From Apteryx mantelli (taxonomy: Eukaryota > Chordata > Aves > Apterygiformes > Apterygidae): a stretch of 64,000 bases of DNA. The translations under genes were made by a program, and so were the position numbers. Under the pieces are notes generated by a model that did no database searches, was not told the DNA's origin, and saw only the letters and a program-made list of their open reading frames with translations. Every line of letters begins with the position of its first letter. Positions within the stretch are counted from its first letter, which is position 1. This document shows, piece by piece, positions 12,749-59,205 of the stretch. The DNA is taken from contig NC_089979.1 of NCBI RefSeq assembly GCF_036417845.1, forward strand, positions 118,391,415 through 118,455,414. The letters are read 5' to 3'.

Positions 12749-12762
12749 GCTGAATTTTCTGG

Positions 12763-29529: not shown

Positions 29530-32500
29530 CCAAGTGTTTCCATTTGGCATCAGCTTCTGCTAGCTGAAACAGGAGACTGGGAAGAGCATTTTGGGTTGCA
29601 CAACTTCACAAAGCACCGCAGGGCCTTCCGGCATGGAGAGAAGAGGCTGTGAGTGAGGGAGACTCCTTGCCACCTTGACAGCTCCAGCGTCTTTCCCAGA
29701 GACTTTTGTATGGCTCTCTGGGCACAGCAGGGACAGCTTCAGCTGATGCCCAGGTCATTCAAACACTCTTTTTGCACAGCATACAGCTTTCTGCGAGCAA
29801 ACAATGTGGCCCAAACAGACACTAAACCTGAAGAGGAACACTTATCCCCAGATTAGAAATAAAACCCCAGGGATAAGGGCATGTAACGAGCTGACTGCTT
29901 TAGGGATGTTGTACTACCAGTGGCCTTGAGGTCTAGCCGCGTGCTTACATTTGGCGTGAGTGGATCAGCACACCGCTATCAGCCCAGATTTGGCATATTT
30001 CCCTGAACGCAGGCACTGCTCCAGGCAGGGGGTGCTGGGCTCAGTGCAAAGCTTGGCTGGGCTGCACCTCCTCTGTGCAATGCTGCATTGGGGCAGTTTG
30101 GGCACAGCCTGGGGAGGACGGACAGCATGAGACTCTTCCCTGGGCTCACTCAGCGTGGGCTTTGCCACCATGCGTGGGTTTGGAAGCCATTCGGTAGCCT
30201 CCCTTTGCTCAAGGTGGGTACAATGTCATCCTCTCTTGGCAAGGTGTCAGGAGGCTCAGCCAGGCCTCCCAGGGGATGCCCTCGCCCCGTGGCACAGGTG
30301 CTGGGCACACATCACTTGGGGTGCTCAGATCTGCCGGTTTCAGTGTCTACCTAAATTACACACCTCACTCAGAGCGCATTGCTGGGGCTGTGCTGCTTGT
30401 GGGGACGGTGCAGTCAGGACCAGTAAGATCTGAGAAAGTCAGCAGGGAGCTGTCGGCTGGGCAATCACATTCATCTCTCCTAGACCCATCCCAGCAGGAG
30501 AGATGGGCTCCTGCTCTCACAGCTGGAGGCCCCAGCAAGTTGTTATTCAAAATGTTGTGATAAAATCCTTTCCTTTTCTTTTCCTGGCGTATGCGAGGCC
30601 TTGGACTGACTTCACGCAAAGGCAGGGTACACTTGCATGGTCTGCCTCTGGATCTGTCCCTGCTCAGGGATGTCTGCAGCTGGGGTTGTCCAGACACTCT
30701 GGCCATCACCTATCTCATGGCTCTGTCAGCGGCCATGCTCCCTTCTGCCACCTGTGCTGCGCACTGCAGTCACGTCACACACGCAGACGAATTGCTACAA
30801 TAACCAGAGTTCGAGGAGGTAGACGGGAATGGAAGACGAGGTGCTGCTGATTCTGCTGAGGGATGCAAATCTCTCTGCAGAGCCAAATACTGCTTTGAGC
30901 AAATGTCGGTGTAGGAGGGACACCCACCAAGATATTTAGATATTTTCCATTGATAGTGTGCCCGTAAAATCACCTCCACGTCAGCAGCAACAGTATCTGG
31001 GCTGGGGGCCCGTCACACCTCCCACAGCGCCTAACCTGCGCAACGCCCAGGCAGGGGCACGGCCCCAGACCAGCGTGGCCCCAGACCAGCAGAGTCACAC
31101 TGCACTGCTGAGGGCTCAGAAATGTTAAACTGAACTTCATTTCCTGAACCTGAACTTCAAAGCACATGAATCAGCATCTCCTACACCAGGGGGAATCTCA
31201 GTGCTTTTAGTATCTCCTTGCCATTGCCTGGGTTTGGAGAGGAGCAGCTGTTTAGCTCCCCCTTTCCTTAAAAGCCCGAATGGAGGAGGGGGCTGTGGTC
31301 CCACACTCTCTGGGACCCAGCGCCCCTTTGGCCTCCCACCAGGACAGCAAAGCTCTGCCGGCTGTGCCCAGACCCAGCCAGGGCACAGCAAGCCCAGCCC
31401 CAGGGACCTGACGATGCAAGCAGCGCTCCCGTGGCCTGGCTCTCTCTTCTAGGCACTTTCTCTGTGCTTGGCGGACAACAGCACACTCACACACATGCAC
31501 TAACACATGATGTGGGCAGGAACATCAATTATATTCCATAATGATATCAGCAAGCCAGAGAGCGTGAGCGAGGTGATGTCCTGATGTGAATGTCACAGGT
31601 TGCCCCAACCCTACCTGCTGAAAACCACAGGGAAAGATGAAGCAGCCGAAGAGATGCTGCCATATGCAGAGCCACCAGCACAGAGCTCAGAGACAGAAAA
31701 AGGAAATGACTGTCAAAGAGGAAAGAAAACCGCAAAGCGAGACCTGGTGGCTGCCACCAGCCGTCCCAGCTGCCAAATGACCCCCCCACCCCAGCAGGGG
31801 CAGAGGCAGGACCTGGGAGGCCCGGACATTAGGTCACTCAGCTCACTCTTAGACATTGAGCCCTCCGAGGAGACAAGAGTCCTTCATAAAGACCCCCCAC
31901 CTCTCTCAGCCTCCATTTTGTGGGCTGGGCCCCCTCTGGCCTTCTGCGAAGGGGTCACTGAGCAGCTCCGTGGCAAGTCTGTGCCAAGGGCTTCTTGAAC
32001 ATGACTCAGTTCTGCCCCTCGGCTGACCACAACCGCAGGCATCTCCAGTACATCCCCTCTGACCATCTTCCCTCCCTCCACTCCTGCTGGCTGTGAGCAC
32101 AGTGGGCAGAGAAGAGGAGCAGACCATCTCACACAGACAAACAGTACAAATCATCCTGCTTCTTCTGCTCGTATGAAAGGAAGGAAAGAAAGCAAAATTT
32201 GCAAGCCAAGTTGAGTGTGCCCCCCACATCTTCCCCTCTACCTGCTAATGGAGGGGAAGCAATGGGGAACTCCGACTCTGTCCCCAGTTTGCCAGGCCTT
32301 GTTCATCTCCTCGACCCACCACAGCCATTGCCCTGGCGCTGGTGTCTACGGATGGAAAGTGGGAAGAAAACATTCACCAGCTGTTAAGGGGCAAGAAAAC
32401 AGCTGATCAAGATTGGCAACTGGCCTTGACATCGTTACCGGAAGAGGGCTGCTCAACAGATCTGGGTTTGTCCACATCCTACCTAGTACTGGAAGCAGGA

Positions 32501-32888
32501 CTGCCTCTGCCCTGAAGAGTTGCTCCACGTCATTTTGATTAATGCTCAGGTTAACCCTGGAGGTCTTGGCGCTCATGCTGAGCCCTGTAACCATTCCTGC
32601 ACTTGCTTGGCTTGGCCAGGATTATCCTCCCTGCTAGGGAAGTCTGTACTCTGCTCTCACCCTGTCGGAACAACTTAGCGTTTGGGAACAAGACCCATTT
32701 CCTCACTCACTGCTCTTGCGTACGAGAGGTGCTGCGTTCTGATAGCTGGTTTGCAAACACTTGGTGACACGAACATGTCTTTGCCTTGCTGGGTATTGTG
32801 GTAAAAGCTGATGCTGAGCTAAACACAACTGAGAACACTTTTATGATTTCCCAGTTGTCTCTACTAAACTGTGGCTGGGCCCTCTCCT

Positions 32889-32920
<32 letters not shown>

Positions 32921-34710
32921 GTTCATCATCACATGCTGCATGTGCATTCACATCATGAGATCAACTTTTTGTCTGAAGCACTTTTCAGAATAAACCATTT
33001 ATTTGCATCTCCATCTTCCTAATCTTTATTTCCCTTCCTCCTGACACTGTAACAGTACCTCAGTGAGCCAAAAGAGTGGGCACAAGAGGCAGCATTATAT
33101 AAGCTCAGTTTTCCAACGATATTCTCAACTCTGCGCATGAACTCCCTCATCAGGATTTTAGGAGGCCATTGCACTGCCACTTTTGCTGGCGGCGACAAAT
33201 GTCATCAATGCTAACAAAGCTAGGAAGGCCTTTGAAGGTTTTTGAGGTAGGAAATTAGGGCCTGTGCCAAAAGGTTTCCCTCCCCCGCAACATGAAATGG
33301 CCTCACAGGACAACTGACTAGTCAGGGTAGGGATAGCGGTACCTCACTGCAAAGCAGGATGCCCTGTACAGGGTTGTTCAGCTCAGCAGTGGCCATACTC
33401 AGACCAGCAGACAGGAGGAGTGTGGGGGGCAGAGAGTGTGACATCCAGTCTGGGCGGCCGAGTTGCTCTGCGTGTGCGGGGGACATCTGCACCCTGGACA
33501 GTTCTTGTGCCACGTGGTGGGACATGATGGGGAAGGAGTCAGCAGCTGGTGTGGGCCTTTGCCCCTGTCGAGAGTTCAGCCATGTCACAGCCCAGGATTG
33601 GTCTCCCTGCATGTGCTGCTCTTCGGGGCTGTGGGCACCTCAGTGGTAACGAATCATGCTGGCTGAAGTGCACACTATCAGCCAGGGCTGCATCCTGCCT
33701 GGCAGGGAGGTTTCCTAGGGACGTCTTCAGGAACAACAATACTTAAGGAGATAACACAGCAAACACTGCCCTTTGCTTTGTAATATTGTTCTTTTCCATG
33801 TATTTTGTACTACGTGAGAAGTCTGTCACAGCTACTCACACCAGCATTACTTTGGCATTTACCGGTTGAACTACTAGCTAAAAAGCACATCCGTCTCATT
33901 TAGCAAATTCCAACAAGCTGTAGAACAGAAAAAGTGTTGCGTCAGGACTGGGGCCAAGCAGGTAAACTAGTCAGCAAAGTCTGGAAATCAACAGCATATG
34001 ACTGCTATTCACACCTTCACTTCATTGTTAGTCTCCAAGAGCATCCAACATGGTATTTGTTTTGAGAAGGAAGAGTGATGCAATCATTTTCCTTGAATAT
34101 TCACACATGTATGTGTGTGTCAGGGCAGAGGGGGTGTTCTTCCAAGGAAAAATGTCAAAGTAAAACTGATATCCTTTCTCATCACTGCCTATTGGCACTG
34201 TTGGGCCATCAGTCACAGACATCTTGACCAAAAATCCTTGGGCTACAAAAGAAGGAGTCATGCTTCCCCTCCCTTAACAAATTGGGGCTGCAGAGCAGAG
34301 TCTGCAGATAAAGTTGGTGGAATCAGGTGAGGCAGGGGGCACTTTGCAAGTGCATGGTGCAAATTGCAAGTCTATTCCTTTGACATTCTTATTCTTGTTC
34401 AATAAGTAAAATGACATACTGATCTTCAGAGGATGAACCTGATGCAGGTTTCTGTTTCCTTAGTTTCAACTGATGATAAGCTCTTTGGTTTGTGGTTGCT
34501 ATAGGTCTTTAATACGATACGTAACACATAAAGGAAGAGGCAGTTTGTGACTAGCTGCTGTTATGGTGCAGATCTTCGCTATCAATTGGCATTGAAAGAA
34601 ACCCAAGTTGAGGTAAATACTGCCAGGATGCATGAAGATATACTCACCTCTCAAAAAATGGTGTTATAAAGACATTTCTTTTGATACTCATTCAGACACA
34701 GTGTTGGATT
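29530..34710. other. Upstream part of left arm, no coding gene seen
   Basis: GC-rich in its outer part, with many short overlapping frames that recur mirror-wise in the other arm. These identical frames are not evidence of coding, because the whole DNA is identical. It probably holds the 5' flank and regulatory DNA of the receptor gene. A TATATAAG motif occurs near 33,096. Confidence 0.4.
32888..32920 (+). repeat. (TTTC)n microsatellite in left arm
   Basis: About eight TTTC units. The mirror tract at 52,626-52,658 has the same length, which is notable for a fast-mutating repeat. Confidence 0.9.
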
Positions 34711-34764
34711 ATGGATGAGAACCTGACATACCTGCTGGCTGGAGAAAGCCTGGAGAACTTGGAG
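34711..34764 (+). CDS. Candidate first coding exon of left CCR8-type receptor
   Basis: An ATG at 34,711 opens 18 codons (MDENLTYLLAGESLENLE) ending exactly at a strong donor, GAG|GTGAGT. The exon ends in phase 0. The acceptor TTGTCCTTAAACAG at 37,365 also leaves phase 0 and begins VDYPSPTF, so joining the two keeps the receptor frame and gives a 377-residue product. The peptide is short, acidic and carries a possible N-glycosylation site (NLT), as expected for a chemokine-receptor N-terminus. Several related receptors, such as CCR9, are known to split their N-terminus in this way. Splicing is inferred, not shown. Confidence 0.5.
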
Positions 34765-37365
34765 GTGAGTCATACCCAGCTAGGCTGCTACCCTGCTAGC
34801 TGAGTAGGGGCACATCTAGTGTTCCTTCTCTGCTGTGATATCTAGTTCTGCTGTGATATCTAGTCCTGCTAGTGGCAGCTAGGGTTTAAAAGAAATCAAT
34901 GTGATCATTGTTCTCTGGAAAGAAATAGTGTGTGAAAATATCTTTCACTGATAAAACTGTGTGTCAAAGACACCCATTATAGTAGAGAAAATACTGGGTA
35001 GTTAAAAAAAAAAGATACTGGAGATATCTAATGGAGACAGTGTCCTGAACAGTGGATGAATACGGTGTCACTAATGTTGTTTAGCACTGTTTGTCATCAT
35101 GGGTTGACTTTAGGTTGACATTGTCGCTGTTTAGTTACTAAGAAGGGCCAGGAAGTAGGGAAGCAGGGTGTACCTACTGCTGGGTGGATTTTGACAGGTG
35201 CCAGGGCTGAATTAAGATTAGAACTGCTGATACTGACAGGGTCCGGTTTATGTGCTTCTGCCCCCCTGGCATTTGGTTCTTCTTTACTGTTTATTCACTT
35301 CTGGGCTCTCTGGAAAAGCTGTCTATTTTGAAGATATAAATGTATTCAGTTCAGCTGATCCTGGCAACCAAGCTCTTTTACACCTGGTGATTCAGACACT
35401 CTCTAGTCACCACTTGAGAAGGGGCCCCCAATTACACCAGTCTCATTTCCCAGGGAAGCAAAACTGCAGCACCTGTGCAGACCTGACTTTGGAGGCTCCT
35501 GACTGCAGGCAGCTGCCAACACATCAGTGTGTCTGAAGATCAGGCTCTTGCTTCATGCAGGGCTTCAACCCCTGTCCTCTGAACTGTCATACTTTCAGAG
35601 GGAAAAGGCTGCCACACCAGAGGACAGCACAGCCTTTAAGCCCTCTTCTTAGTCCTGGTTCAGCCTCTGTCTCTTACTGACACGAGCAGGACACTGCTCC
35701 TGCTAGCAGGAGCTCTGCTGTGGCCACCCGGGCCAGCAGGAGCTGCCTTCCTGCAGCCCAGGGTAAAATGGCCAGGGGCAACCCAGAGGCATCTTATGAA
35801 GGCACCTCTTGCAGTGTACGGGGAGACGGCACAGGAGGCTCTCCAGTCTCCTTCCTCAACAGAGTCCTTCCCTTGTGCCTGTCCCTGGAAAGGAATGGGG
35901 GGCACGAGAATGCCCAAGAGCTACAGGTGCCCCCAGTGCCCCCTAAGCCCACAGGGTGCTGAAGCATCTTAAACAGCAGCAGAGCTCTTGCAGGCTCCTT
36001 CGTGGTCTGGTGCTGGTGAGAAACTGAGGGCTGCAGCCAGCACTTCTCAGTGGCTGCCTCCAAGGACAACCAGAGCAGAGACACTGCTGAAATGCACAGG
36101 CTGATACCTGGGACTCTGCTCTCTCAGTGTTAGGCTCTGAAATCAGCCCAGCCTGACTGCAGAGTCAGGCACATGCTCGCCCCTTGCAACTGGCTGGATG
36201 CTGAGCTGAGGTCTTTATTGCAGAAAAACAGAAAAACAAAATCACTTTTTACACAGATGGGCATGCCTGATCTTTGCTTCAGAAACTCAGAAATCCAGCC
36301 ATCCCTGTTACCTGAATAAAGGCCTGGTGGGAATCAGCCGCTGCAAATAGCTGGTTGTTTGGGCAGTTGCAGAGAGAGGACAAGGCTTTTGCTGGGGAGA
36401 AGGGGCAGAAGCAATCGAGCAGTTTTGCTCTTTAGGAAATCATCACTTGGACTACAGCTGCAAATGCTGCAAATGCACTTGTGATGTGCACAACCCACTT
36501 GTGAACTGTAGCTGCTGGTACCTTTACAACTGAAAACCTATTTTAACAATGCTAGGAGCCTCTGAAAAAGTGACTTGTCACACTGTGGGCTATTTCTGGC
36601 ACTCAGTAACTAAAAGTAGAGCTTTTCTGGAGGTCAGAGTTCATGTGTGTATTCCTCCCTGAACACTGCTCCCTTTCTCCTTTCTGAAGAATAACGTGGA
36701 ATACAACCACAAAACCTTTGGCAGGGAGCTCTCAGCACACTGACTGTGTCCATCTTGGTACTGGTTTGATGATGCTCCTTGGCTCCAGCCCCACTTCCTA
36801 ACAACCTCCACTGGGACTGCAGGCACAGTGCTGGCAACCCTACAGAGAGCAGGCTGGTGGGTTACTGGTAACCTCTGCTTTCCCACAGCAGCTGAGTTTT
36901 CCTTGATCTTCCCTATCCCCTCCTCTGCAACAGCCTTATCCTGGCAGGGAGGACTGGCCGGTGATATTCACTCCTTGTTTGCACTCTACCGGCCTGGACA
37001 AGGCGAAACCCCAAATGTGTGCTAAGAATAGACTCTGACTCCATACAGACTTCCAGGCAGATCAAGCACAGTGCATTTCTCAGTCCTATATATAGCAAGT
37101 AGACCCCAGCTTCTTGCATCTGCAGACAATGTGCAGGAAAGAAAGACTTTCTTTTTCAGAGATTTCCTGCATCATTATTTTCATTGGGGAAGCAGGAATG
37201 TGAGAAGAGTGTTTAGCTAGTCTTTAGCTACAACATGAAACAACTCACAGAAGAGGAACTCCATGTCTCCTCAAGTGCTTTGGTATGAGCTGAATTGTAC
37301 CTAATATATCTACTAAGAATTTAAGTTGTGATACGTGTCTCATGAAATTATTTGTCCTTAAACAG
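34765..37365 (+). other. Likely intron 1 of the left CCR8-type gene, with an internal TATA motif
   Basis: Bounded by a GTGAGT donor and a pyrimidine-rich acceptor ending ACAG. A TATATATAG box at 37,087-37,095 lies about 250 bases before the second exon and could drive a shorter transcript that starts within the intron. The GC-rich middle holds only chance frames. Confidence 0.4.
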
Positions 37366-38445
37366 GTAGATTACCCATCACCAACATTTAATTCCTCTGC
37401 ACCTTATGATGGCGGTTTCCTCTACCCTGACATGGACATCAGCTGTGGTCTTGAAAATATTTCATCATTTGTATCTACATTTTTTCCAGTGCTGTACAGC
37501 ATATTGTTTGTGACAGGTCTCATGGGAAATGCTTTGGTTGTTTGGGTCTTAATAGTCTTCAAGAAAATCAATACCATGACTGATGTGTATCTGCTGAACC
37601 TCGCCATCTCAGATCTCCTCTTTGTCTTCTCCCTCCCCTTCTTGGTTCAGTACTCCATAGTGGGCCAGTGGACTTTTGGAAATGCAATGTGTAAAATAAT
37701 CAGTTCTGCTTACTTCATTGGTTTCTACAGCAGCGCATTCTTCATAACCATCATGAGCATCGACAGGTACTTGGCCATTGTCCGATCTGTGTATGCTCTG
37801 CAGGTTCGGACCACCGCACATGGGATACTTACAAGCCTGGTCCTTTGGGCGGTAGCCGTTTTAGCATCAGCACCAGCCTTCCTTTTTTTCCAGGAAGAGG
37901 ATGATAACAACAGAACTATATGCATCCCGCATTATCCCGACAGTAACAATGGCTGGAAGATCTTTTCTAATTTCGAAGTCAGTGTCTTGGGCTGGCTGAT
38001 CCCCCTTGGCATCCTCATTTTCTGCTACTACAGCATCTTGAAAAACCTGCAGAAGTGCCAAACTCAGAACAAATACAAAGCAACGAAGCTCGTGTTCATT
38101 GTTGTCACTGTGTTCTTCCTTTTCTGGACCCCCATCAACATTGTGCTTTTCCTGGACTCTCTGAAGAATATGTATATCATAGATGACTGTCACGCAAGCC
38201 AAAGGCTAGCTCTAGCTGTAGAGCTGGCCGAGGCGTTCTCCTTCATCCACTGCTGCCTCAACCCAGTCATCTATGCTTTTGTGGGTGAGAAGTTCAAGAA
38301 GTATGTCTGTGAGGCTTTCGGAAAACATGCACGGTTCCTACTGATCTGCAAAGACTACAGGACTTTCAGTGGGCACAGCTTTGACAAGCGTTCCTCTCTG
38401 CACCCAGCATCCTCACAGTCTTCCTTCATTGATACTGTCTTATAG
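37342..38445 (+). CDS. CCR8: CCR8-type CC chemokine receptor, left copy
   Basis: A 367-residue frame for a class A chemokine receptor. It acts at the leukocyte surface, and the mammalian CCR8 ligand is CCL1. Seven hydrophobic segments run from about residue 45. TDVYLLNLAISDLLFVFSLP lies at 80-99, the Cys117/Cys194 disulfide pair is present, DRYLAIV is at 141-147 and NPVIYAF at 307-313. The tail is Ser-rich and ends IDTVL, close to the VDYIL end of human CCR8. The resemblance to CCR4 is also high, but synteny between CX3CR1 and SLC25A38 points to CCR8. Some bird annotations call such genes CCR8L. The ATG at 37,342 gives eight residues (MKLFVLKQ) that overlap a good splice acceptor, so the coding exon more likely begins at 37,366 and is joined to the exon at 34,711. 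The frame is intact, and orientation matches the ancestral order. Confidence 0.9.
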   Translation: MKLFVLKQVDYPSPTFNSSAPYDGGFLYPDMDISCGLENISSFVSTFFPVLYSILFVTGLMGNALVVWVLIVFKKINTMTDVYLLNLAISDLLFVFSLPFLVQYSIVGQWTFGNAMCKIISSAYFIGFYSSAFFITIMSIDRYLAIVRSVYALQVRTTAHGILTSLVLWAVAVLASAPAFLFFQEEDDNNRTICIPHYPDSNNGWKIFSNFEVSVLGWLIPLGILIFCYYSILKNLQKCQTQNKYKATKLVFIVVTVFFLFWTPINIVLFLDSLKNMYIIDDCHASQRLALAVELAEAFSFIHCCLNPVIYAFVGEKFKKYVCEAFGKHARFLLICKDYRTFSGHSFDKRSSLHPASSQSSFIDTVL

Positions 38446-40000
38446 ATCAGGAAATCAAAAAATTTCATCCTGAATGGGTGACCTGAAGGTGAGAATTTCT
38501 GCCAGCTATTTAGTTAATATAGTCTTCATGTTGCTTTTGGAGAAGTTGTTTCAGTAATGCCCCAGCAAGAATGGGAAACCTTACAGTACTAGAGCAATGG
38601 ATATCATTGCTTGATATTCTTTGATACTGTTCTAATAGGGAACCTCACAGACATTACTCTTCTGAAATACTGTCTTGTGGGTAGCAAATGGGAATGAAAA
38701 CTTCAAACCTAGAAAATAATATCAAGCAGCTTTTCACCCATCCCTCTGCCCACCAGCTGAATGGTTTATCAATGGAGATTTTTTTCTCCTTTTCAGCTGA
38801 GCACAGGAGTGTTCAGGCCTTGAGGCACTGTGTGGACAACCTTTTAGGATATGAGATATGAGAAAAGTTGAAGGAGCTGCTTAAACCTGCTCTTACCATG
38901 GTTTCCTTTGGGGTTCTTACTTTTTAGCTTCTTCCTGAAGGCTGTATACCCCTTTCCTGTGACACTTCCTGCCATGTCTGCTTTGTGAAGGGGAGGCCAA
39001 AATTACAGGCAGACTCCCTCACTGCCTGGGCAACACAGAGAACTCCATCCAGCCTCTCCAGCTCAGGGCACAGAGGTCTCAAAGATCCCTAAAGAAATCA
39101 TGACATAGGCATCAAAGGAGAGGGAGGAGGCAGCCTCTCTTATTAGCCATGAAGTGAGGGAGTTCATCAAGGACTTGTTACAGAGCTTGTAGCATCTTCT
39201 GTCCCAAAGGAAGATGTTAGATGTGCTGTTGAAACAATTAACTCTCCCCCAAGGAATTGTCATTAGTTTGCACAATAATAAGGTAAACAGTTGTTGATAA
39301 CCGCACAAAGATTGAAAGACATTGCCCTCCTAGGTGCCACGGTAACACAAAGGGTAATAGCTGGGGAGCTCACAGAGCCTGGCATTTCTGGCAGCTCCCT
39401 GGGCTCCTGGGCTACCAGGGTTTTGAAGTCATAGCCTAGAAATGATTGTTTTAGACAGCTGCTGGTAGACTGTGGGTATCTTAAGAAAAAACACTTATGG
39501 GAATGAACATGTGCCCCTAAGTATAAGTGGAGAAATAGTTACCTGAAGAAAGAGCTGAAGAGTGGAAAAATACTAAGTGTGTGCTGAGACCTGTAAGAAC
39601 TGTATGTAAAAGCTTCCTGGGGACTGACTGGCTGGTAAGCTGTGGGCCAAAGAGGTGGTTGGCCTCCAGCAGAGCCCTGACCCACCAGGGGAAGGGCTGG
39701 GTGTTCTGCTGAATGCCCAAAACAGAATGGAGAGAGAAACAAACAGCAGTACTGCACAAACATCCTGTAACTCAGATGGTATCTAAAGCAGATGGCAGTG
39801 GCTGATTTGAGTGACCAGAGGCATCAGAAATGTATAAAATCCGGACAACACTGAAAACCTATGAGGGAACTGTTTTGCTCTAAGCAACTGAGGCACCAGT
39901 ATGATCTCCACTTTGAGCATACAGCTGGGGTTGACTTCTCAGTTACTGTTCCAGCTCAGTAACTATGAATGAATGATTTACACATGAATGGATACCCATG

Positions 40001-40099
40001 CATATATATATACACACACATATATGTGTATATACATATATGCATACATGCATATATAGATATATGTATGTATGTATGCATGTATGTTTACATATACAA
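40001..40099 (+). repeat. Mixed AT / CA / GTAT microsatellite
   Basis: Alternating purine-pyrimidine tract of TA, CA, TG and TATG units (for example TATGTATGTATGTATG). It is able to form cruciform or Z-like structures. Confidence 0.85.
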
Positions 40100-41379
40100 A
40101 CACTGATGGATCAAATACAATGCTATTCTGAAACTTTTGGTCCTGGTCTACTTCTCCCTGCAAGATATCACAACATTTTAATTTTTATAATGCAGATACT
40201 GCATGCAGTACAATTCCACAGTCCTTGCACCTCAGGAACTTTACTATTTTTTCATTAATTCTTTCAGCTTGTGCATTTTCTTCTGTTCTGGACAATTCTA
40301 CAAAACTGACAATTCCTCCATCTCCCTCTTCCCTCTCTCCCCCCCCTCCACAAACCTCATAGTAAACTATCTTTTATTCTAGAACTTGAACTCATTATAA
40401 GTCTGCCTCCATTCTATTCCCACACATACTGAATACTCTTGGGCTTACTTCCTAGAGCAGAGCAGAACAAAACATAAAATACAGTTCCGTTAAACTTTTT
40501 CTTCAGATTCAGATTCAGATTTTCTTCAGATAGGATTTACTATTTTAACAAGTACTAGTATTTGCAATCTGCAGGATACAACATTTTGCAAGAACAGGCT
40601 AGTAGCGGTATGTGTAGAAATAAATGCTCCATCATGTGGACCACAACACATTCTCCAAATTCTAAAGCAAAGGCTGTGAACAAAGGAAAAGGTTCAACTT
40701 CTTTCTAGATCACAGCAGCAAGATCTTCGACGGGAAGTCAGGCTCAGCACTACAGCTCCTACCATTTAGTTGCCTTGCCACCCTGGCGCATTCTTGCGAC
40801 TTTTTTGATAACCAGGCTCTTTTTGTATATGTAAACACTCAGATGCCTAAGAATGGGATCCACAGAAATTAAGGACAATGCCAAAGGACAGTGTGCAGGA
40901 GGACAATACCAGGTATTTCCTTCCACTGGAGATTCACAGCATGTGCCATCTAGATCAGACTTTTCCCTCCTGAAACATGAAAGGTGACAACAATTTTTGG
41001 AGCCCCTTTTTCATCCGCAGACCTGGTCTGCAGTCCTTCTGTAGCTGTTTAGGGGCAGGAATTTGAACCCGTATACAAGCTGGCAAGAGAATGGCCACTC
41101 CCCAGGGCTGCTGAATGCGTCTGCTAAGGAATACCTCTTTTCAGAGATTTCATTGGGTTATTGCGTAACTACTGGAGCAAGGGCTTCCCTATGATGGCTG
41201 AAAACCAGGACATTGTGCAGCCACCCTCCTTCCCCTCTCTCACGGCCAGGCAGCGTTCAGCTGCGGCCACTGGACTGATGGACTGAGTCCGTGCGGCAGT
41301 AAATGCCCATGCGCCCTCCCTCAGTTCTGTTTGGGGTTTTAGAAGACGTCTTTGCCCTCAACAGCTAAGTCGTGACACC

Positions 41380-44700: not shown

Positions 44701-46917
44701 GCTGGGGAAGAGGTGTGTCATCACTCCAGTCAAGTAAATATAGTGTCATGCAGAAAGGGAACTCTTTCACTGGGTCAGTGGGAACTGAGAACACACGTTA
44801 TCGGCTCTGGAGGGAGACTTGCTGTAGGAAAACCCTTGGGAAAGAGATAATCTTGTTCTGCTCCCCTCCTCCCCCACAACCAGGTGTGCTGAGTTTGTTG
44901 TGCCCAAAATATGACAATTTTTCCAATTGTTTTCATTGCTCTGCTGTATTAATAGCTGCATTCTTCAGTGTATGCTTACAGTGGAAAAATGACAAAGTGA
45001 AAGTACATCTTTGTTATATTTTATAAATTTAGAAATAAAATTAAACATGAGAAAAAGCCATCTTTGTAAAGTCTTTCACTTCTCTAGTGCCTAGTAGACT
45101 CTAAAGGGCATCTTTCCCCTACTGCTGCCTCAGACAAAGCCTTCCAGTGGGAAGGTGGGAGATGCTTTCTGCGGCACAAAGGATTCCTTGCCTGAGGCCC
45201 CTGGCTTCCCCCACTTGCAGTAACCAAACAGGGAGTCCAGAGCTGGAGCTAACCTGAGCTCTTCCTTGCAGCCCAGCTGCTCACAGCTGTTGCAGCTTCC
45301 TGCCTGTGAAGGTGAGACCCACATCTGGCCCCTGCATGGCCAGCAGGGCCTCCCCCATTTGACTGAGAGAGGGCAGGAACATCCCTGCAGATCTCAGAGC
45401 TACTTTCCCTTATGAAAGGGATGGGGAGGGGGCAGGACAAGCCTAGGAGCAGCCTGCTGCCACACCAGTGTGCGTGTGGAGACTGAGAGCACAGGAGAGC
45501 AGGAGGCATCTTCCTGCATTTGCACAGTTGGCAGAGCCCCGAGCTGAGGGGCCAGGAGGGTAATGCCAAATTGTAGAGTTGTCCCAGGAGCTGGAAGCAA
45601 GAAAAGCACCCAGCTGTTGAGGCTGGACCATTCTGCACAGAACTTACGCATGTTCACCTGCTTGGATAAAAGCTACCCATCACAATTTTTATATTGCTTC
45701 TGCTCACATCTGCTCTTCAGCTTTGTAGCCTGATCTTGTTTTTTTTCTTTTTCCTGAGGTGGTACAGGTTAAAAAGAATTCAGAATGGTGTTGGCACATT
45801 AAATATTCAGATAGTCTCTTGTTCTGGCTCAAGTGTGATGTCTTAAAACATGGAATACAAAGTCATAGTTACATTCAAGGTTAAACTGCTAAAATGTGTA
45901 TTTGTTTTCTTTTGATTGACTGGTAGTATTTGTAAAATACAGAGTAGAAAGGAGCGGAATAAGTAAAAGCTGTGTTCCTAGAGAAAACATGCACATGCAC
46001 AGTGTGACTCCCCTTACAGGTTCATGTGTAAGAGGCTGACCATGCCCGTGGTCTTTGGTCTCCTCTGTATTCTCCTGCATAGTATATCTATCATGTTTTC
46101 CAAATTAGAGGAACCCAGTTACTCTCTTAGGGGAGCATCAGGGAAAGAGCATGGCATTCAGTACTTTCAGAGTATTCAGATCAAATTAATTCTAGAGGGT
46201 TGCTGTGAGATGACCATGCACTGCCGATCATTTTGGTGTGTTTTCTGTGCTATATCAGTTTGAATAAATCAGCCGCATTATCCTTGCTTGAGGAGATACT
46301 TGCTTCCTAGAGACAGGCAGCCAAATGGCAGGAACTTTTTCCTGAAATAGATTATTATGTTCCATTCAAAAACATGTAAAATGACAGGGAAAATTATTCA
46401 TTACACTCACCTGGGTATCACAAGAATCTTTTGATCCATTACATCTCTGTAACTCAGAATACAGAGAAGCTTTCGGAAGTAAAAAACAAAATAAAGTAGT
46501 GCTGCTGTATGTGCTACTTTATCAATGTCCAGCTCTCTTAAAGGATGATAGTATCTATTAGAAAGATGGAGTCCTAATGACACCCACTATGCTCTACAAT
46601 TTATTCTACTTTGACCTCTCAGATGGAAAGGTCTTGAAGAGCTTCACTCATTCAGTGTTACAGTGGCATTAGGGGAGTTTGTATTATACAAATGTCACTC
46701 ACTGCAAACCTGTGCAGCAGGTGTGGAATGGAAAGTACATGTTTAAGGATACACACCAGCAAAAAGTTGGATATATGAAGACATACTTGCTTACATGGTT
46801 GCTAAATCCCACAGCAAATAGTGTGAAATAAGATACAGTGTGTTGTTCCACATCTTTCACCTGTGAGCTACAGGATTGTCAACTGAGCACTGCTAATAAC
46901 AGTCTCAACCTCCCCTT
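41771..46917. other. Right half of spacer, no gene identified
   Basis: Follows the CpG island. It includes an AGA-rich stretch near 41,856 and short chance frames. A TTTATT near 46,600 (AATAAA on the minus strand) is a possible polyadenylation signal for the right receptor copy. No recognised exon was found. Confidence 0.35.
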
Positions 46918-48204
46918 TCAAACTACTCCATGTGTAGCTTGCTCTGGCATGATACTGAAACATCTTTCCCAAGGCAAGGTGAAGGTTTTATAAGCTGAAT
47001 CATTGGCAGAATTACTTGTTTTCAAGTCATTTAGCTCTTCACCTATTCGGTCCTCTGCATACAGTCTGGAAGGGAGCATGGGAGTTTTTAACTCCTTGCT
47101 CTGTAAGACAGTATCAATGAAGGAAGACTGTGAGGATGCTGGGTGCAGAGAGGAACGCTTGTCAAAGCTGTGCCCACTGAAAGTCCTGTAGTCTTTGCAG
47201 ATCAGTAGGAACCGTGCATGTTTTCCGAAAGCCTCACAGACATACTTCTTGAACTTCTCACCCACAAAAGCATAGATGACTGGGTTGAGGCAGCAGTGGA
47301 TGAAGGAGAACGCCTCGGCCAGCTCTACAGCTAGAGCTAGCCTTTGGCTTGCGTGACAGTCATCTATGATATACATATTCTTCAGAGAGTCCAGGAAAAG
47401 CACAATGTTGATGGGGGTCCAGAAAAGGAAGAACACAGTGACAACAATGAACACGAGCTTCGTTGCTTTGTATTTGTTCTGAGTTTGGCACTTCTGCAGG
47501 TTTTTCAAGATGCTGTAGTAGCAGAAAATGAGGATGCCAAGGGGGATCAGCCAGCCCAAGACACTGACTTCGAAATTAGAAAAGATCTTCCAGCCATTGT
47601 TACTGTCGGGATAATGCGGGATGCATATAGTTCTGTTGTTATCATCCTCTTCCTGGAAAAAAAGGAAGGCTGGTGCTGATGCTAAAACGGCTACCGCCCA
47701 AAGGACCAGGCTTGTAAGTATCCCATGTGCGGTGGTCCGAACCTGCAGAGCGTACACAGATCGGACAATGGCCAAGTACCTGTCGATGCTCATGATGGTT
47801 ATGAAGAATGCGCTGCTGTAGAAACCAATGAAGTAAGCAGAACTGATTATTTTACACATTGCATTTCCAAAAGTCCACTGGCCCACTATGGAGTACTGAA
47901 CCAAGAAGGGGAGGGAGAAGACAAAGAGGAGATCTGAGATGGCGAGGTTCAGCAGATACACATCAGTCATGGTATTGATTTTCTTGAAGACTATTAAGAC
48001 CCAAACAACCAAAGCATTTCCCATGAGACCTGTCACAAACAATATGCTGTACAGCACTGGAAAAAATGTAGATACAAATGATGAAATATTTTCAAGACCA
48101 CAGCTGATGTCCATGTCAGGGTAGAGGAAACCGCCATCATAAGGTGCAGAGGAATTAAATGTTGGTGATGGGTAATCTACCTGTTTAAGGACAAATAATT
48201 TCAT
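46918..48204 (-). CDS. CCR8L: CCR8-type CC chemokine receptor, right copy with extended tail
   Basis: Residues 1-367 are identical to the left copy, with the same seven-helix layout, DRYLAIV, NPVIYAF and disulfide cysteines. At the position of the left TAG stop this copy has CAG (47,101-47,103), and the frame continues 61 residues to a TGA, giving 428 residues. The added tail has several Ser/Thr residues, acidic patches and one cysteine, and ends THGVV. It loses the terminal TVL of the left copy. Human CCR8 (355 residues) ends near the left copy's stop, so the extension is probably derived. A 61-codon frame stays open by chance about 5 percent of the time, so the tail may be translated but is not proven. 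As on the left, the eight-residue start overlaps an acceptor, and the true N-terminus may come from the exon at 50,782-50,835. The name is tentative. Confidence 0.85.
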   Translation of the reverse strand: MKLFVLKQVDYPSPTFNSSAPYDGGFLYPDMDISCGLENISSFVSTFFPVLYSILFVTGLMGNALVVWVLIVFKKINTMTDVYLLNLAISDLLFVFSLPFLVQYSIVGQWTFGNAMCKIISSAYFIGFYSSAFFITIMSIDRYLAIVRSVYALQVRTTAHGILTSLVLWAVAVLASAPAFLFFQEEDDNNRTICIPHYPDSNNGWKIFSNFEVSVLGWLIPLGILIFCYYSILKNLQKCQTQNKYKATKLVFIVVTVFFLFWTPINIVLFLDSLKNMYIIDDCHASQRLALAVELAEAFSFIHCCLNPVIYAFVGEKFKKYVCEAFGKHARFLLICKDYRTFSGHSFDKRSSLHPASSQSSFIDTVLQSKELKTPMLPSRLYAEDRIGEELNDLKTSNSANDSAYKTFTLPWERCFSIMPEQATHGVV

Positions 48205-50781
48205 GAGACACGTATCACAACTTAAATTCTTAGTAGATATATTAGGTACAATTCAGCTCATACCAAAGCACTTGAGGAGACATGGAGTTCCTCTTCTGTG
48301 AGTTGTTTCATGTTGTAGCTAAAGACTAGCTAAACACTCTTCTCACATTCCTGCTTCCCCAATGAAAATAATGATGCAGGAAATCTCTGAAAAAGAAAGT
48401 CTTTCTTTCCTGCACATTGTCTGCAGATGCAAGAAGCTGGGGTCTACTTGCTATATATAGGACTGAGAAATGCACTGTGCTTGATCTGCCTGGAAGTCTG
48501 TATGGAGTCAGAGTCTATTCTTAGCACACATTTGGGGTTTCGCCTTGTCCAGGCCGGTAGAGTGCAAACAAGGAGTGAATATCACCGGCCAGTCCTCCCT
48601 GCCAGGATAAGGCTGTTGCAGAGGAGGGGATAGGGAAGATCAAGGAAAACTCAGCTGCTGTGGGAAAGCAGAGGTTACCAGTAACCCACCAGCCTGCTCT
48701 CTGTAGGGTTGCCAGCACTGTGCCTGCAGTCCCAGTGGAGGTTGTTAGGAAGTGGGGCTGGAGCCAAGGAGCATCATCAAACCAGTACCAAGATGGACAC
48801 AGTCAGTGTGCTGAGAGCTCCCTGCCAAAGGTTTTGTGGTTGTATTCCACGTTATTCTTCAGAAAGGAGAAAGGGAGCAGTGTTCAGGGAGGAATACACA
48901 CATGAACTCTGACCTCCAGAAAAGCTCTACTTTTAGTTACTGAGTGCCAGAAATAGCCCACAGTGTGACAAGTCACTTTTTCAGAGGCTCCTAGCATTGT
49001 TAAAATAGGTTTTCAGTTGTAAAGGTACCAGCAGCTACAGTTCACAAGTGGGTTGTGCACATCACAAGTGCATTTGCAGCATTTGCAGCTGTAGTCCAAG
49101 TGATGATTTCCTAAAGAGCAAAACTGCTCGATTGCTTCTGCCCCTTCTCCCCAGCAAAAGCCTTGTCCTCTCTCTGCAACTGCCCAAACAACCAGCTATT
49201 TGCAGCGGCTGATTCCCACCAGGCCTTTATTCAGGTAACAGGGATGGCTGGATTTCTGAGTTTCTGAAGCAAAGATCAGGCATGCCCATCTGTGTAAAAA
49301 GTGATTTTGTTTTTCTGTTTTTCTGCAATAAAGACCTCAGCTCAGCATCCAGCCAGTTGCAAGGGGCGAGCATGTGCCTGACTCTGCAGTCAGGCTGGGC
49401 TGATTTCAGAGCCTAACACTGAGAGAGCAGAGTCCCAGGTATCAGCCTGTGCATTTCAGCAGTGTCTCTGCTCTGGTTGTCCTTGGAGGCAGCCACTGAG
49501 AAGTGCTGGCTGCAGCCCTCAGTTTCTCACCAGCACCAGACCACGAAGGAGCCTGCAAGAGCTCTGCTGCTGTTTAAGATGCTTCAGCACCCTGTGGGCT
49601 TAGGGGGCACTGGGGGCACCTGTAGCTCTTGGGCATTCTCGTGCCCCCCATTCCTTTCCAGGGACAGGCACAAGGGAAGGACTCTGTTGAGGAAGGAGAC
49701 TGGAGAGCCTCCTGTGCCGTCTCCCCGTACACTGCAAGAGGTGCCTTCATAAGATGCCTCTGGGTTGCCCCTGGCCATTTTACCCTGGGCTGCAGGAAGG
49801 CAGCTCCTGCTGGCCCGGGTGGCCACAGCAGAGCTCCTGCTAGCAGGAGCAGTGTCCTGCTCGTGTCAGTAAGAGACAGAGGCTGAACCAGGACTAAGAA
49901 GAGGGCTTAAAGGCTGTGCTGTCCTCTGGTGTGGCAGCCTTTTCCCTCTGAAAGTATGACAGTTCAGAGGACAGGGGTTGAAGCCCTGCATGAAGCAAGA
50001 GCCTGATCTTCAGACACACTGATGTGTTGGCAGCTGCCTGCAGTCAGGAGCCTCCAAAGTCAGGTCTGCACAGGTGCTGCAGTTTTGCTTCCCTGGGAAA
50101 TGAGACTGGTGTAATTGGGGGCCCCTTCTCAAGTGGTGACTAGAGAGTGTCTGAATCACCAGGTGTAAAAGAGCTTGGTTGCCAGGATCAGCTGAACTGA
50201 ATACATTTATATCTTCAAAATAGACAGCTTTTCCAGAGAGCCCAGAAGTGAATAAACAGTAAAGAAGAACCAAATGCCAGGGGGGCAGAAGCACATAAAC
50301 CGGACCCTGTCAGTATCAGCAGTTCTAATCTTAATTCAGCCCTGGCACCTGTCAAAATCCACCCAGCAGTAGGTACACCCTGCTTCCCTACTTCCTGGCC
50401 CTTCTTAGTAACTAAACAGCGACAATGTCAACCTAAAGTCAACCCATGATGACAAACAGTGCTAAACAACATTAGTGACACCGTATTCATCCACTGTTCA
50501 GGACACTGTCTCCATTAGATATCTCCAGTATCTTTTTTTTTTAACTACCCAGTATTTTCTCTACTATAATGGGTGTCTTTGACACACAGTTTTATCAGTG
50601 AAAGATATTTTCACACACTATTTCTTTCCAGAGAACAATGATCACATTGATTTCTTTTAAACCCTAGCTGCCACTAGCAGGACTAGATATCACAGCAGAA
50701 CTAGATATCACAGCAGAGAAGGAACACTAGATGTGCCCCTACTCAGCTAGCAGGGTAGCAGCCTAGCTGGGTATGACTCAC
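48181..50781 (-). other. Likely intron 1 of the right CCR8-type gene
   Basis: Mirror of the left intron, with the same donor, acceptor and TATATATAG box (48,451-48,459). Short frames here are copies of those in the left arm. Confidence 0.4.
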
Positions 50782-50835
50782 CTCCAAGTTCTCCAGGCTT
50801 TCTCCAGCCAGCAGGTATGTCAGGTTCTCATCCAT
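50782..50835 (-). CDS. Candidate first coding exon of right CCR8-type receptor
   Basis: Mirror copy of the 18-codon exon at 34,711-34,764, identical in sequence, with the same GTGAGT donor. Joined to the main exon it would give a 438-residue right receptor including the extended tail. Confidence 0.48.
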
Positions 50836-52625
50836 AATCCAACACTGTGTCTGAATGAGTATCAAAAGAAATGTCTTTATAACACCATTTTTTGAGAGGT
50901 GAGTATATCTTCATGCATCCTGGCAGTATTTACCTCAACTTGGGTTTCTTTCAATGCCAATTGATAGCGAAGATCTGCACCATAACAGCAGCTAGTCACA
51001 AACTGCCTCTTCCTTTATGTGTTACGTATCGTATTAAAGACCTATAGCAACCACAAACCAAAGAGCTTATCATCAGTTGAAACTAAGGAAACAGAAACCT
51101 GCATCAGGTTCATCCTCTGAAGATCAGTATGTCATTTTACTTATTGAACAAGAATAAGAATGTCAAAGGAATAGACTTGCAATTTGCACCATGCACTTGC
51201 AAAGTGCCCCCTGCCTCACCTGATTCCACCAACTTTATCTGCAGACTCTGCTCTGCAGCCCCAATTTGTTAAGGGAGGGGAAGCATGACTCCTTCTTTTG
51301 TAGCCCAAGGATTTTTGGTCAAGATGTCTGTGACTGATGGCCCAACAGTGCCAATAGGCAGTGATGAGAAAGGATATCAGTTTTACTTTGACATTTTTCC
51401 TTGGAAGAACACCCCCTCTGCCCTGACACACACATACATGTGTGAATATTCAAGGAAAATGATTGCATCACTCTTCCTTCTCAAAACAAATACCATGTTG
51501 GATGCTCTTGGAGACTAACAATGAAGTGAAGGTGTGAATAGCAGTCATATGCTGTTGATTTCCAGACTTTGCTGACTAGTTTACCTGCTTGGCCCCAGTC
51601 CTGACGCAACACTTTTTCTGTTCTACAGCTTGTTGGAATTTGCTAAATGAGACGGATGTGCTTTTTAGCTAGTAGTTCAACCGGTAAATGCCAAAGTAAT
51701 GCTGGTGTGAGTAGCTGTGACAGACTTCTCACGTAGTACAAAATACATGGAAAAGAACAATATTACAAAGCAAAGGGCAGTGTTTGCTGTGTTATCTCCT
51801 TAAGTATTGTTGTTCCTGAAGACGTCCCTAGGAAACCTCCCTGCCAGGCAGGATGCAGCCCTGGCTGATAGTGTGCACTTCAGCCAGCATGATTCGTTAC
51901 CACTGAGGTGCCCACAGCCCCGAAGAGCAGCACATGCAGGGAGACCAATCCTGGGCTGTGACATGGCTGAACTCTCGACAGGGGCAAAGGCCCACACCAG
52001 CTGCTGACTCCTTCCCCATCATGTCCCACCACGTGGCACAAGAACTGTCCAGGGTGCAGATGTCCCCCGCACACGCAGAGCAACTCGGCCGCCCAGACTG
52101 GATGTCACACTCTCTGCCCCCCACACTCCTCCTGTCTGCTGGTCTGAGTATGGCCACTGCTGAGCTGAACAACCCTGTACAGGGCATCCTGCTTTGCAGT
52201 GAGGTACCGCTATCCCTACCCTGACTAGTCAGTTGTCCTGTGAGGCCATTTCATGTTGCGGGGGAGGGAAACCTTTTGGCACAGGCCCTAATTTCCTACC
52301 TCAAAAACCTTCAAAGGCCTTCCTAGCTTTGTTAGCATTGATGACATTTGTCGCCGCCAGCAAAAGTGGCAGTGCAATGGCCTCCTAAAATCCTGATGAG
52401 GGAGTTCATGCGCAGAGTTGAGAATATCGTTGGAAAACTGAGCTTATATAATGCTGCCTCTTGTGCCCACTCTTTTGGCTCACTGAGGTACTGTTACAGT
52501 GTCAGGAGGAAGGGAAATAAAGATTAGGAAGATGGAGATGCAAATAAATGGTTTATTCTGAAAAGTGCTTCAGACAAAAAGTTGATCTCATGATGTGAAT
52601 GCACATGCAGCATGTGATGATGAAC

Positions 52626-52657
<32 letters not shown>

Positions 52658-55600
52658 AGGAGAGGGCCCAGCCACAGTTTAGTAGAGACAACTGGGAAAT
52701 CATAAAAGTGTTCTCAGTTGTGTTTAGCTCAGCATCAGCTTTTACCACAATACCCAGCAAGGCAAAGACATGTTCGTGTCACCAAGTGTTTGCAAACCAG
52801 CTATCAGAACGCAGCACCTCTCGTACGCAAGAGCAGTGAGTGAGGAAATGGGTCTTGTTCCCAAACGCTAAGTTGTTCCGACAGGGTGAGAGCAGAGTAC
52901 AGACTTCCCTAGCAGGGAGGATAATCCTGGCCAAGCCAAGCAAGTGCAGGAATGGTTACAGGGCTCAGCATGAGCGCCAAGACCTCCAGGGTTAACCTGA
53001 GCATTAATCAAAATGACGTGGAGCAACTCTTCAGGGCAGAGGCAGTCCTGCTTCCAGTACTAGGTAGGATGTGGACAAACCCAGATCTGTTGAGCAGCCC
53101 TCTTCCGGTAACGATGTCAAGGCCAGTTGCCAATCTTGATCAGCTGTTTTCTTGCCCCTTAACAGCTGGTGAATGTTTTCTTCCCACTTTCCATCCGTAG
53201 ACACCAGCGCCAGGGCAATGGCTGTGGTGGGTCGAGGAGATGAACAAGGCCTGGCAAACTGGGGACAGAGTCGGAGTTCCCCATTGCTTCCCCTCCATTA
53301 GCAGGTAGAGGGGAAGATGTGGGGGGCACACTCAACTTGGCTTGCAAATTTTGCTTTCTTTCCTTCCTTTCATACGAGCAGAAGAAGCAGGATGATTTGT
53401 ACTGTTTGTCTGTGTGAGATGGTCTGCTCCTCTTCTCTGCCCACTGTGCTCACAGCCAGCAGGAGTGGAGGGAGGGAAGATGGTCAGAGGGGATGTACTG
53501 GAGATGCCTGCGGTTGTGGTCAGCCGAGGGGCAGAACTGAGTCATGTTCAAGAAGCCCTTGGCACAGACTTGCCACGGAGCTGCTCAGTGACCCCTTCGC
53601 AGAAGGCCAGAGGGGGCCCAGCCCACAAAATGGAGGCTGAGAGAGGTGGGGGGTCTTTATGAAGGACTCTTGTCTCCTCGGAGGGCTCAATGTCTAAGAG
53701 TGAGCTGAGTGACCTAATGTCCGGGCCTCCCAGGTCCTGCCTCTGCCCCTGCTGGGGTGGGGGGGTCATTTGGCAGCTGGGACGGCTGGTGGCAGCCACC
53801 AGGTCTCGCTTTGCGGTTTTCTTTCCTCTTTGACAGTCATTTCCTTTTTCTGTCTCTGAGCTCTGTGCTGGTGGCTCTGCATATGGCAGCATCTCTTCGG
53901 CTGCTTCATCTTTCCCTGTGGTTTTCAGCAGGTAGGGTTGGGGCAACCTGTGACATTCACATCAGGACATCACCTCGCTCACGCTCTCTGGCTTGCTGAT
54001 ATCATTATGGAATATAATTGATGTTCCTGCCCACATCATGTGTTAGTGCATGTGTGTGAGTGTGCTGTTGTCCGCCAAGCACAGAGAAAGTGCCTAGAAG
54101 AGAGAGCCAGGCCACGGGAGCGCTGCTTGCATCGTCAGGTCCCTGGGGCTGGGCTTGCTGTGCCCTGGCTGGGTCTGGGCACAGCCGGCAGAGCTTTGCT
54201 GTCCTGGTGGGAGGCCAAAGGGGCGCTGGGTCCCAGAGAGTGTGGGACCACAGCCCCCTCCTCCATTCGGGCTTTTAAGGAAAGGGGGAGCTAAACAGCT
54301 GCTCCTCTCCAAACCCAGGCAATGGCAAGGAGATACTAAAAGCACTGAGATTCCCCCTGGTGTAGGAGATGCTGATTCATGTGCTTTGAAGTTCAGGTTC
54401 AGGAAATGAAGTTCAGTTTAACATTTCTGAGCCCTCAGCAGTGCAGTGTGACTCTGCTGGTCTGGGGCCACGCTGGTCTGGGGCCGTGCCCCTGCCTGGG
54501 CGTTGCGCAGGTTAGGCGCTGTGGGAGGTGTGACGGGCCCCCAGCCCAGATACTGTTGCTGCTGACGTGGAGGTGATTTTACGGGCACACTATCAATGGA
54601 AAATATCTAAATATCTTGGTGGGTGTCCCTCCTACACCGACATTTGCTCAAAGCAGTATTTGGCTCTGCAGAGAGATTTGCATCCCTCAGCAGAATCAGC
54701 AGCACCTCGTCTTCCATTCCCGTCTACCTCCTCGAACTCTGGTTATTGTAGCAATTCGTCTGCGTGTGTGACGTGACTGCAGTGCGCAGCACAGGTGGCA
54801 GAAGGGAGCATGGCCGCTGACAGAGCCATGAGATAGGTGATGGCCAGAGTGTCTGGACAACCCCAGCTGCAGACATCCCTGAGCAGGGACAGATCCAGAG
54901 GCAGACCATGCAAGTGTACCCTGCCTTTGCGTGAAGTCAGTCCAAGGCCTCGCATACGCCAGGAAAAGAAAAGGAAAGGATTTTATCACAACATTTTGAA
55001 TAACAACTTGCTGGGGCCTCCAGCTGTGAGAGCAGGAGCCCATCTCTCCTGCTGGGATGGGTCTAGGAGAGATGAATGTGATTGCCCAGCCGACAGCTCC
55101 CTGCTGACTTTCTCAGATCTTACTGGTCCTGACTGCACCGTCCCCACAAGCAGCACAGCCCCAGCAATGCGCTCTGAGTGAGGTGTGTAATTTAGGTAGA
55201 CACTGAAACCGGCAGATCTGAGCACCCCAAGTGATGTGTGCCCAGCACCTGTGCCACGGGGCGAGGGCATCCCCTGGGAGGCCTGGCTGAGCCTCCTGAC
55301 ACCTTGCCAAGAGAGGATGACATTGTACCCACCTTGAGCAAAGGGAGGCTACCGAATGGCTTCCAAACCCACGCATGGTGGCAAAGCCCACGCTGAGTGA
55401 GCCCAGGGAAGAGTCTCATGCTGTCCGTCCTCCCCAGGCTGTGCCCAAACTGCCCCAATGCAGCATTGCACAGAGGAGGTGCAGCCCAGCCAAGCTTTGC
55501 ACTGAGCCCAGCACCCCCTGCCTGGAGCAGTGCCTGCGTTCAGGGAAATATGCCAAATCTGGGCTGATAGCGGTGTGCTGATCCACTCACGCCAAATGTA

Positions 55601-56016
55601 AGCACGCGGCTAGACCTCAAGGCCACTGGTAGTACAACATCCCTAAAGCAGTCAGCTCGTTACATGCCCTTATCCCTGGGGTTTTATTTCTAATCTGGGG
55701 ATAAGTGTTCCTCTTCAGGTTTAGTGTCTGTTTGGGCCACATTGTTTGCTCGCAGAAAGCTGTATGCTGTGCAAAAAGAGTGTTTGAATGACCTGGGCAT
55801 CAGCTGAAGCTGTCCCTGCTGTGCCCAGAGAGCCATACAAAAGTCTCTGGGAAAGACGCTGGAGCTGTCAAGGTGGCAAGGAGTCTCCCTCACTCACAGC
55901 CTCTTCTCTCCATGCCGGAAGGCCCTGCGGTGCTTTGTGAAGTTGTGCAACCCAAAATGCTCTTCCCAGTCTCCTGTTTCAGCTAGCAGAAGCTGATGCC
56001 AAATGGAAACACTTGG
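50836..56016. other. Upstream part of right arm, no coding gene seen
   Basis: Mirror of 29,530-34,710. It would supply the right receptor with the same 5' regulatory DNA as the left. The TTTC microsatellite appears here as GAAA at 52,626-52,658. Confidence 0.4.
52626..52658 (-). repeat. (GAAA)n microsatellite in right arm
   Basis: Mirror of the TTTC tract at 32,888-32,920, with the same repeat count. Confidence 0.9.
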
Positions 56017-59000: not shown

Positions 59001-59200
59001 AAATTCAGTGGCAATAGGTAACATATGTATCTGTTGAAAAAGAAACATTCAGTAATAGTTCAGATCACTTAAATTCCACTCTTGGTAGGCTCTAGTATTT
59101 TGAGCCCTTAAAGACAGGCTGGTGTGTTTCTGCAGGGGAAGGTTTCAGTAGATTGGAAATTACACGCAGAAGACCACAGCGGCTGGTGTGGATAGGGGTG
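56017..59200. other. Unique flank between right arm and SLC25A38, no gene seen
   Basis: AT-rich, with a palindromic ATATATTATT-rich patch near 56,570-56,620. No recognised coding exon or transposon was seen. It separates the divergently placed right receptor (minus) and SLC25A38 (plus). Confidence 0.4.
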
Positions 59201-59205
59201 GCAGC

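Follow-up and report, generated by a model that had tools for sequence, protein, structure and literature searches.

Background

Large inverted repeats whose arms are homogenised by gene conversion have been described as palindromes on the sex chromosomes, among them the X and Y chromosomes of primates (PMC11168930, PMC8981503) and, in birds, a W-linked palindrome of New World sparrows and blackbirds, which is cited in PMC7692361. In PMC11168930, a palindrome is defined by arms of at least 8 kb, an arm identity of at least 98%, a spacer of at most 500 kb and a repetitive content below 80%. A raised GC content has also been reported for the palindromes of the human X chromosome (46.3% vs 41.2%; PMC8981503).

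Gene conversion is likewise known between paralogous genes of the immune system. For TLR1-family genes from birds and mammals, adding the 3' UTRs did not shift the boundaries of the converted tracts, one pair of cattle genes excepted (PMC3125219), and among chemokine receptors the conversion of CCR2 and CCR5 has been reported in mammals, for example in bats (PMC8877049). On chicken chromosome 2, the chemokine receptor genes CCR4, CCR8 and CX3CR1 are described as lying together in a first cluster, and CCR2, CCR5, CCR8L1, CCR9 and XCR1 in a second (PMC1082905). Judged by titles and abstract openings, the literature that we searched did not report a bird CCR8 duplication with gene conversion, and the search for autosomal palindromes gave no paper.

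In this study, we describe an inverted pair of CCR8 genes in the genome of Apteryx mantelli, and compare it with these systems. The pair belongs to a known kind, that of palindrome-style gene conversion or of gene conversion between immune paralogues; what sets it apart is that its setting is probably autosomal and that one of the two copies has a 3' tail of its own.

Methods

The stretch of DNA analysed here (the window, 64 kb) corresponds to C2:118,391,415-118,455,414. Contig C2 measures 173 Mb, and the assembly as a whole comprises 1.50 Gb in 408 contigs. Open reading frames were taken from stop to stop, and 145 such frames were listed (53 in the spacer, 41 in an arm and 51 in the right flank). 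Eighty-seven of these (53, 13 and 21, respectively) were scanned against Pfam as single exons, a procedure that can miss short exons. The position of the end of the receptor gene was judged from where human CCR8 ends when aligned with it. Divergence was converted to time using an avian substitution rate of 2e-9 per site per year, and the resulting dates are rough.

Results and discussion

The receptor frames and their neighbours

The reading frame of arm 1 matched the Pfam family 7tm_1 (E 2e-65), and its best four PDB matches were human CCR8 constructs, the top one with an E value of 1.1e-98. In the alignment with 8xml_R, a human CCR8 chain, the final residues of the chain and of the arm-1 frame are paired with each other, and we take this end of the chain to be the native C-terminus of human CCR8. 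The frame is thus identified as CCR8 by PDB and Pfam matches: it is closest to CCR8, alignable over most of its length, and has a CX3CR1-like neighbour. A CCR8 frame is present in each of the two arms, so that a previous reading made from the letters alone (the sequence-only reading), in which each arm was said to carry a whole chemokine receptor gene, holds in this respect. The coordinates of all features are collected in Table 1.

Table 1. Features of the inverted CCR8 duplication and its surroundings, in window coordinates
Feature	Position	Strand	Basis or remark
CX3CR1-like receptor frame, left neighbour	11684..12862	-	7tm_1 match and frame
Arm 1, probably the native copy	29530..38442	+	arm alignment; smooth outer GC; CCR8 stop kept
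(TTCT)8 microsatellite, 33 bp	32888..32920	+	equal length in the mirror copy, 52,626-52,658
Arm-1 CCR8 frame, coding for 367 aa (C-terminus ...SSFIDTVL-stop)	37342..38445	+	putative start is the first ATG of the frame
Sole difference between the arms	37794 (mirror position 47,752)	+	T vs C in the mirrored codon, synonymous
Spacer, 8,661 bp	38443..47103	.	53 stop-to-stop frames of at least 60 aa, with 0 Pfam matches at E <= 0.01
Putatively old, diverged inverted homology, arm-1 side (stop codon and 3' UTR)	38443..38569	+	alignment, blastn
Putatively old, diverged inverted homology, arm-2 side	46938..47103	-	alignment, blastn
Arm-2 CCR8 frame, coding for 428 aa (the same 367 aa and 61 residues)	46918..48204	-	CAG replaces the stop codon
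Private 3' extension of the arm-2 frame (61 codons and stop), beyond the identical block	46918..47103	-	frame comparison
Arm 2, probably the derived copy	47104..56016	-	one mismatch to arm 1; GC step at outer edge
Partial mitochondrial carrier family match, right neighbour	62812..63072	+	33 residues, E 1.7e-6

The name CX3CR1 for the left neighbour is assumed from the human protein, and the carrier frame on the right is presumably SLC25A38, by synteny with the human gene order, which we take to be CX3CR1-CCR8-SLC25A38. The duplication therefore seems to sit inside a conserved interval. Other receptor frames on the same contig were found at 118.39 Mb (CCR4-like), at 120.51 Mb (XCR1-like, 2.1 Mb away) and at 120.55 Mb (CC-type), these names being our assumption. 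Because this grouping of receptors on a contig of 173 Mb resembles the clusters of chicken chromosome 2, the locus is likely to be autosomal.

Two arms of 8,913 bp with a single difference

Arm 1 is the reverse complement of arm 2 over 8,913 bp, with one mismatch and no gap. A base-by-base recheck reproduced exactly the arm coordinates and the constant coordinate sum of 85,546 that had been proposed before, and the one mismatch, already described as synonymous, was located at the third base of codon 151 (TAT/TAC). The earlier remark that non-coding DNA is as alike as coding DNA was borne out as well, since the portion of the arm upstream of the receptor frame (29,530-37,341, 7,812 bp) and the microsatellite within the arm contain no difference at all. 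A BLAST match can be carried on to 38,452/47,093 only at the cost of two extra mismatches and one gap.

In 134 kb of contiguous sequence around the locus, the arm pair was the only near-identical repeat among the matches longer than 400 bp, the remaining ones being in direct orientation, shorter than 1 kb and 72-89% identical; no duplicates longer than 400 bp were found in 70 kb of the XCR1/CC-receptor region. A genome search with positions 36,000-38,442 gave five matches, namely the two arms and three weaker ones, with identities of 68%, 72% and 83%, which fall within other receptor frames. All five matches being explained, there is no third copy of 36,000-38,442 on another contig.

Identity ends at the stop codon, and a diverged homology continues beyond it

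The identity of the arms ends on the base preceding the CCR8 stop codon, the next triplet being TAG in arm 1 vs CAG in arm 2. Past this inner edge, a diverged inverted homology runs on in the same orientation, with 87 matches among 126 aligned bases. The first 36 ungapped columns contain 20 matches, 7 transitions and 9 transversions; after a length difference of 38 bp, a second block follows with 67 matches in 90 columns, 13 transitions and 10 transversions (K80 0.32). The second block reached a local score of 44. Dinucleotide shuffles (n = 2,000) averaged 12.75 and did not exceed 24.5, and the best of 2,000 pairs drawn at random within the window scored 26.5. An extension anchored at the inner edge scored 12.25, while 60 random pairs scored 2.75 or less. 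The homology was also recovered by blastn, when the inner flanks were searched against the window (93 bp, 72.0%, E 1.2e-8) and, with a weaker E value, within 104 kb (75 bp, 74.7%, E 1.2e-5). At the inner edge, identity thus falls in a single step from 99.99% to about 70%, and an abrupt step of this kind favours copying between older copies. Such a step would be expected of an old inverted CCR8 duplication homogenised recently over 8.9 kb, but not of a plain fresh duplication or an assembly duplicate. On the evidence of this edge, the arms appear to be younger in sequence than the duplication that produced them.

Two other readings bear directly on these observations. According to the first, a plain 8.9-kb inverted duplication has arisen freshly, and the likeness of the inner flanks is either fortuitous or due to a diverged repeat present in both. 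The near identity of the arms and a clean outer edge would suit such an event, and whole-genome searches with each inner flank found only that flank itself, missing even its mirror partner; they therefore exclude close copies, while being too insensitive for a repeat family diverged to about 70%. Against it, the residual homology lies far above the shuffles and random pairs, begins at the edge itself and has the same orientation, and in the sensitive comparison of 104 kb the inner-flank block matched its mirror partner only. This reading is strongly disfavoured, and we give it very little weight.

The second holds that the pair is a product of assembly, one arm being false, or true differences between the arms having been erased by consensus polishing. 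Identity as high as that seen here would also be expected from an artefact, and polishing could still have wiped out true differences. The inner 3' ends, however, differ by about 30%, so that the arms are not one locus shown twice, which argues against an assembly duplication; the outer flanks are unrelated, the inner ones are homologous and diverged, and the two CCR8 3' ends appear real. The window contains no N and lies on a 173-Mb contig, and one difference between the arms has been kept. A hairpin read resulting from a missed adapter leaves no spacer, and would not have left the 8.7 kb found here. We regard an assembly artefact as improbable.

The outer edge and the probable native copy

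No residual homology was detected at the outer edge, where the local score was 13.5, compared with the mean of 12.75 for the shuffled inner pair, and where the anchored extension of 2.0 was inside the range of the 60 random pairs. The signature of an older duplication is therefore found on one of the two edges only, and the outer edge may be either the original breakpoint of the duplication or the point at which one recent round of copying was joined without homology. The GC content (1 kb on each side) passes smoothly across the outer edge of arm 1, from 0.555 inside to 0.527 outside, and drops in a step from 0.555 to 0.394 at that of arm 2. Since the stop codon of arm 1 aligns with the end of human CCR8 and its GC content is smooth across the outer edge, arm 1 is probably native and arm 2 the copy.

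The GC excess of the arms was considered as a proof of recurrent conversion and was rejected as ambiguous. The non-coding part of the arms has a GC content of 0.506, above the maximum of 0.482 in 126 overlapping windows, yet the value just outside arm 1 is again high; the excess may therefore be ancestral rather than derived from recurrent GC-biased conversion.

A single recent event would account for much of this pattern. A break near an older, diverged copy or remnant of CCR8 would have been repaired by invasion of the native 3' coding end, 8.9 kb would have been copied outward by break-induced replication or a template switch, and the far end would have been joined without homology. Homology at the inner edge and none at the outer one is the one-ended pattern expected of such a repair, the GC step at the outer edge of arm 2 and its lack at arm 1 agree with it, and the one mismatch in 8,913 bp fits an event of recent date. 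A clean outer edge without above-chance homology across it is, however, equally expected of an original duplication breakpoint. We regard a single event of this kind as possible, though rather unlikely.

The 3' tail of arm 2

The replacement of the stop codon by CAG lets the frame of arm 2 run 61 codons further, through what would be a diverged former 3' UTR, to a stop at 46,918-46,920; the resulting 61-residue tail is a prediction. By sampling, a frame stays open for 61 codons or more with a chance probability of 0.068. When the tail was compared with the arm-1 side over 63 ungapped columns, the differences numbered 5, 10 and 5 at codon positions 1, 2 and 3; a coding signature in the tail was rejected, and this lack of a third-position excess gives no sign of a lengthy constraint on the protein. 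The changed base was also seen by eye to make a pyrimidine-rich stretch end in CAG, in the manner of a splice acceptor.

A more far-reaching idea is that of a maintained two-tailed receptor system, in which conversion equalises the ligand-binding and signalling bodies of the two CCR8 genes, while a barrier at the stop codon has shielded their different cytoplasmic tails, on an avian autosome and over tens of millions of years. If this were true, one receptor specificity would be coupled to two regulatory outputs, arm 1 keeping the ancestral ...DTVL end and arm 2 burying DTVL under its extension. We consider such a system highly doubtful.

A proposed old duplication with recent homogenisation

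The reading that we prefer, with somewhat better than even confidence, is an old inverted duplication of CCR8, whose arms have been kept alike by arm-to-arm gene conversion with its last rounds in recent time. The arms, their one difference, the abrupt step, the residual homology and the lost stop codon are observed; the age, mechanism, direction and recurrence, as well as translation of the tail, we infer as follows. An ancient tail-to-tail duplication, in the interval bounded by CX3CR1 and the carrier gene, would have comprised CCR8, about 8 kb upstream of it and no less than 130 bp on its 3' side. The arms would since have paired and copied one onto the other by homologous repair, each tract starting at the outer edge of the duplication and halting where the coding sequence ends; beyond this point the 3' ends, already only about 70% alike, would have been too diverged for pairing or repair. 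Non-reciprocal copying of this kind makes old copies identical over kilobases and spares the adjacent 3' end. The outcome would be an identical receptor body, with the ancestral stop codon and 3' UTR in arm 1, and a lost stop codon and a predicted extension in arm 2. An edge at the stop codon fits such a loss of homology, if selection holds the coding sequences alike while the 3' UTRs drift.

On this reading by conversion, the duplication is old and the identity young, since a K80 of about 0.32 at the 3' ends would correspond to about 80 million years, and the one difference in the 8,913 bp of the arms to some 28,000 years, with a Poisson range of roughly 0.7-156 kyr, which is also the range that the single recent event would fit. 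That event would leave an identical picture, which speaks against taking conversion to be recurrent.

Comparison with known systems

The sequence-only reading had likened the locus to the gene-conversion palindromes of sex chromosomes. The likeness stands as to length, identity, spacer and the step at the inner edge, the arms of 8,913 bp with one mismatch and the spacer of 8,661 bp lying within the limits of PMC11168930. Recurrent conversion would be a further likeness, though one event would give the same result. Repeat content, judged on 36,000-38,442 alone, is represented by the genome matches to the two arms and to three receptor genes. The locus shares with the sex-chromosome palindromes inverted arms of more than 8 kb that are more than 99.9% identical in coding and non-coding DNA alike, a unique spacer, a whole gene on each arm, and an arm GC content above that of most of the surroundings. 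Unlike them, the CCR8 pair is probably autosomal and small, holds one receptor gene, and shows a GC excess that continues outside arm 1.

A second likeness is to the bird pairs TLR1A/TLR1B and TLR2A/TLR2B, which are also duplicated innate immune receptors that have been partly homogenised with the 3' UTR spared, save in one cattle pair (PMC3125219). The TLR tracts, however, are parts of coding sequences exchanged between old paralogues, whereas the arms here comprise the whole coding sequence and 7.8 kb upstream of it. Sequence exchange among related chemokine receptor genes is shared with CCR2 and CCR5, in which, as outlined in the source cited above, chimeric genes have resulted and the exchange includes extracellular domains; in the CCR8 pair, the entire body is identical and the 3' end alone is private.

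If confirmed, the locus would be a compact, probably autosomal case in which an immune receptor gene is homogenised in the manner of a palindrome. Recombination between homologues is available at such a locus, and protection from a lack of recombination therefore cannot be the reason for it. The sharp edge at the stop codon offers a clean natural test of what limits conversion tracts, whether loss of homology in the 3' UTR or selection on the tail. In practical terms, with two identical receptor genes, short reads would give a misleading picture of CCR8 gene counts, expression values and knock-outs in this species.

The spacer, other frames and minor observations

Further genes were sought in the arms and the spacer by the single-exon scan, and the candidate frames were rejected: one of the 87 matched Pfam, namely that of the carrier, which lies outside the arms. 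Among viral contigs, none of five pattern matches was confirmed as a relative. Within the spacer, positions 38658-38791 and 41866-42011 form an inverted match of 148 bp (71%, E 2e-13), possibly an old dispersed element.

To the right of the arms, lengthy overlapping open frames on both strands occupy 59092-59894, and the GC content is 0.552 over 58,001-60,000; this stretch may be a CpG-island promoter belonging to the gene on the right. Several direct repeats with identities of 61-95% lie immediately right of the window (91712-97991 of the joined stretch). About 14 kb to the right of the window, at 118.470-118.472 Mb of the contig, two frames of 314 and 250 codons resemble, by eye, pieces of the gag and protease/polymerase regions of an endogenous retrovirus, a resemblance based on motifs that we take to be characteristic of these regions.
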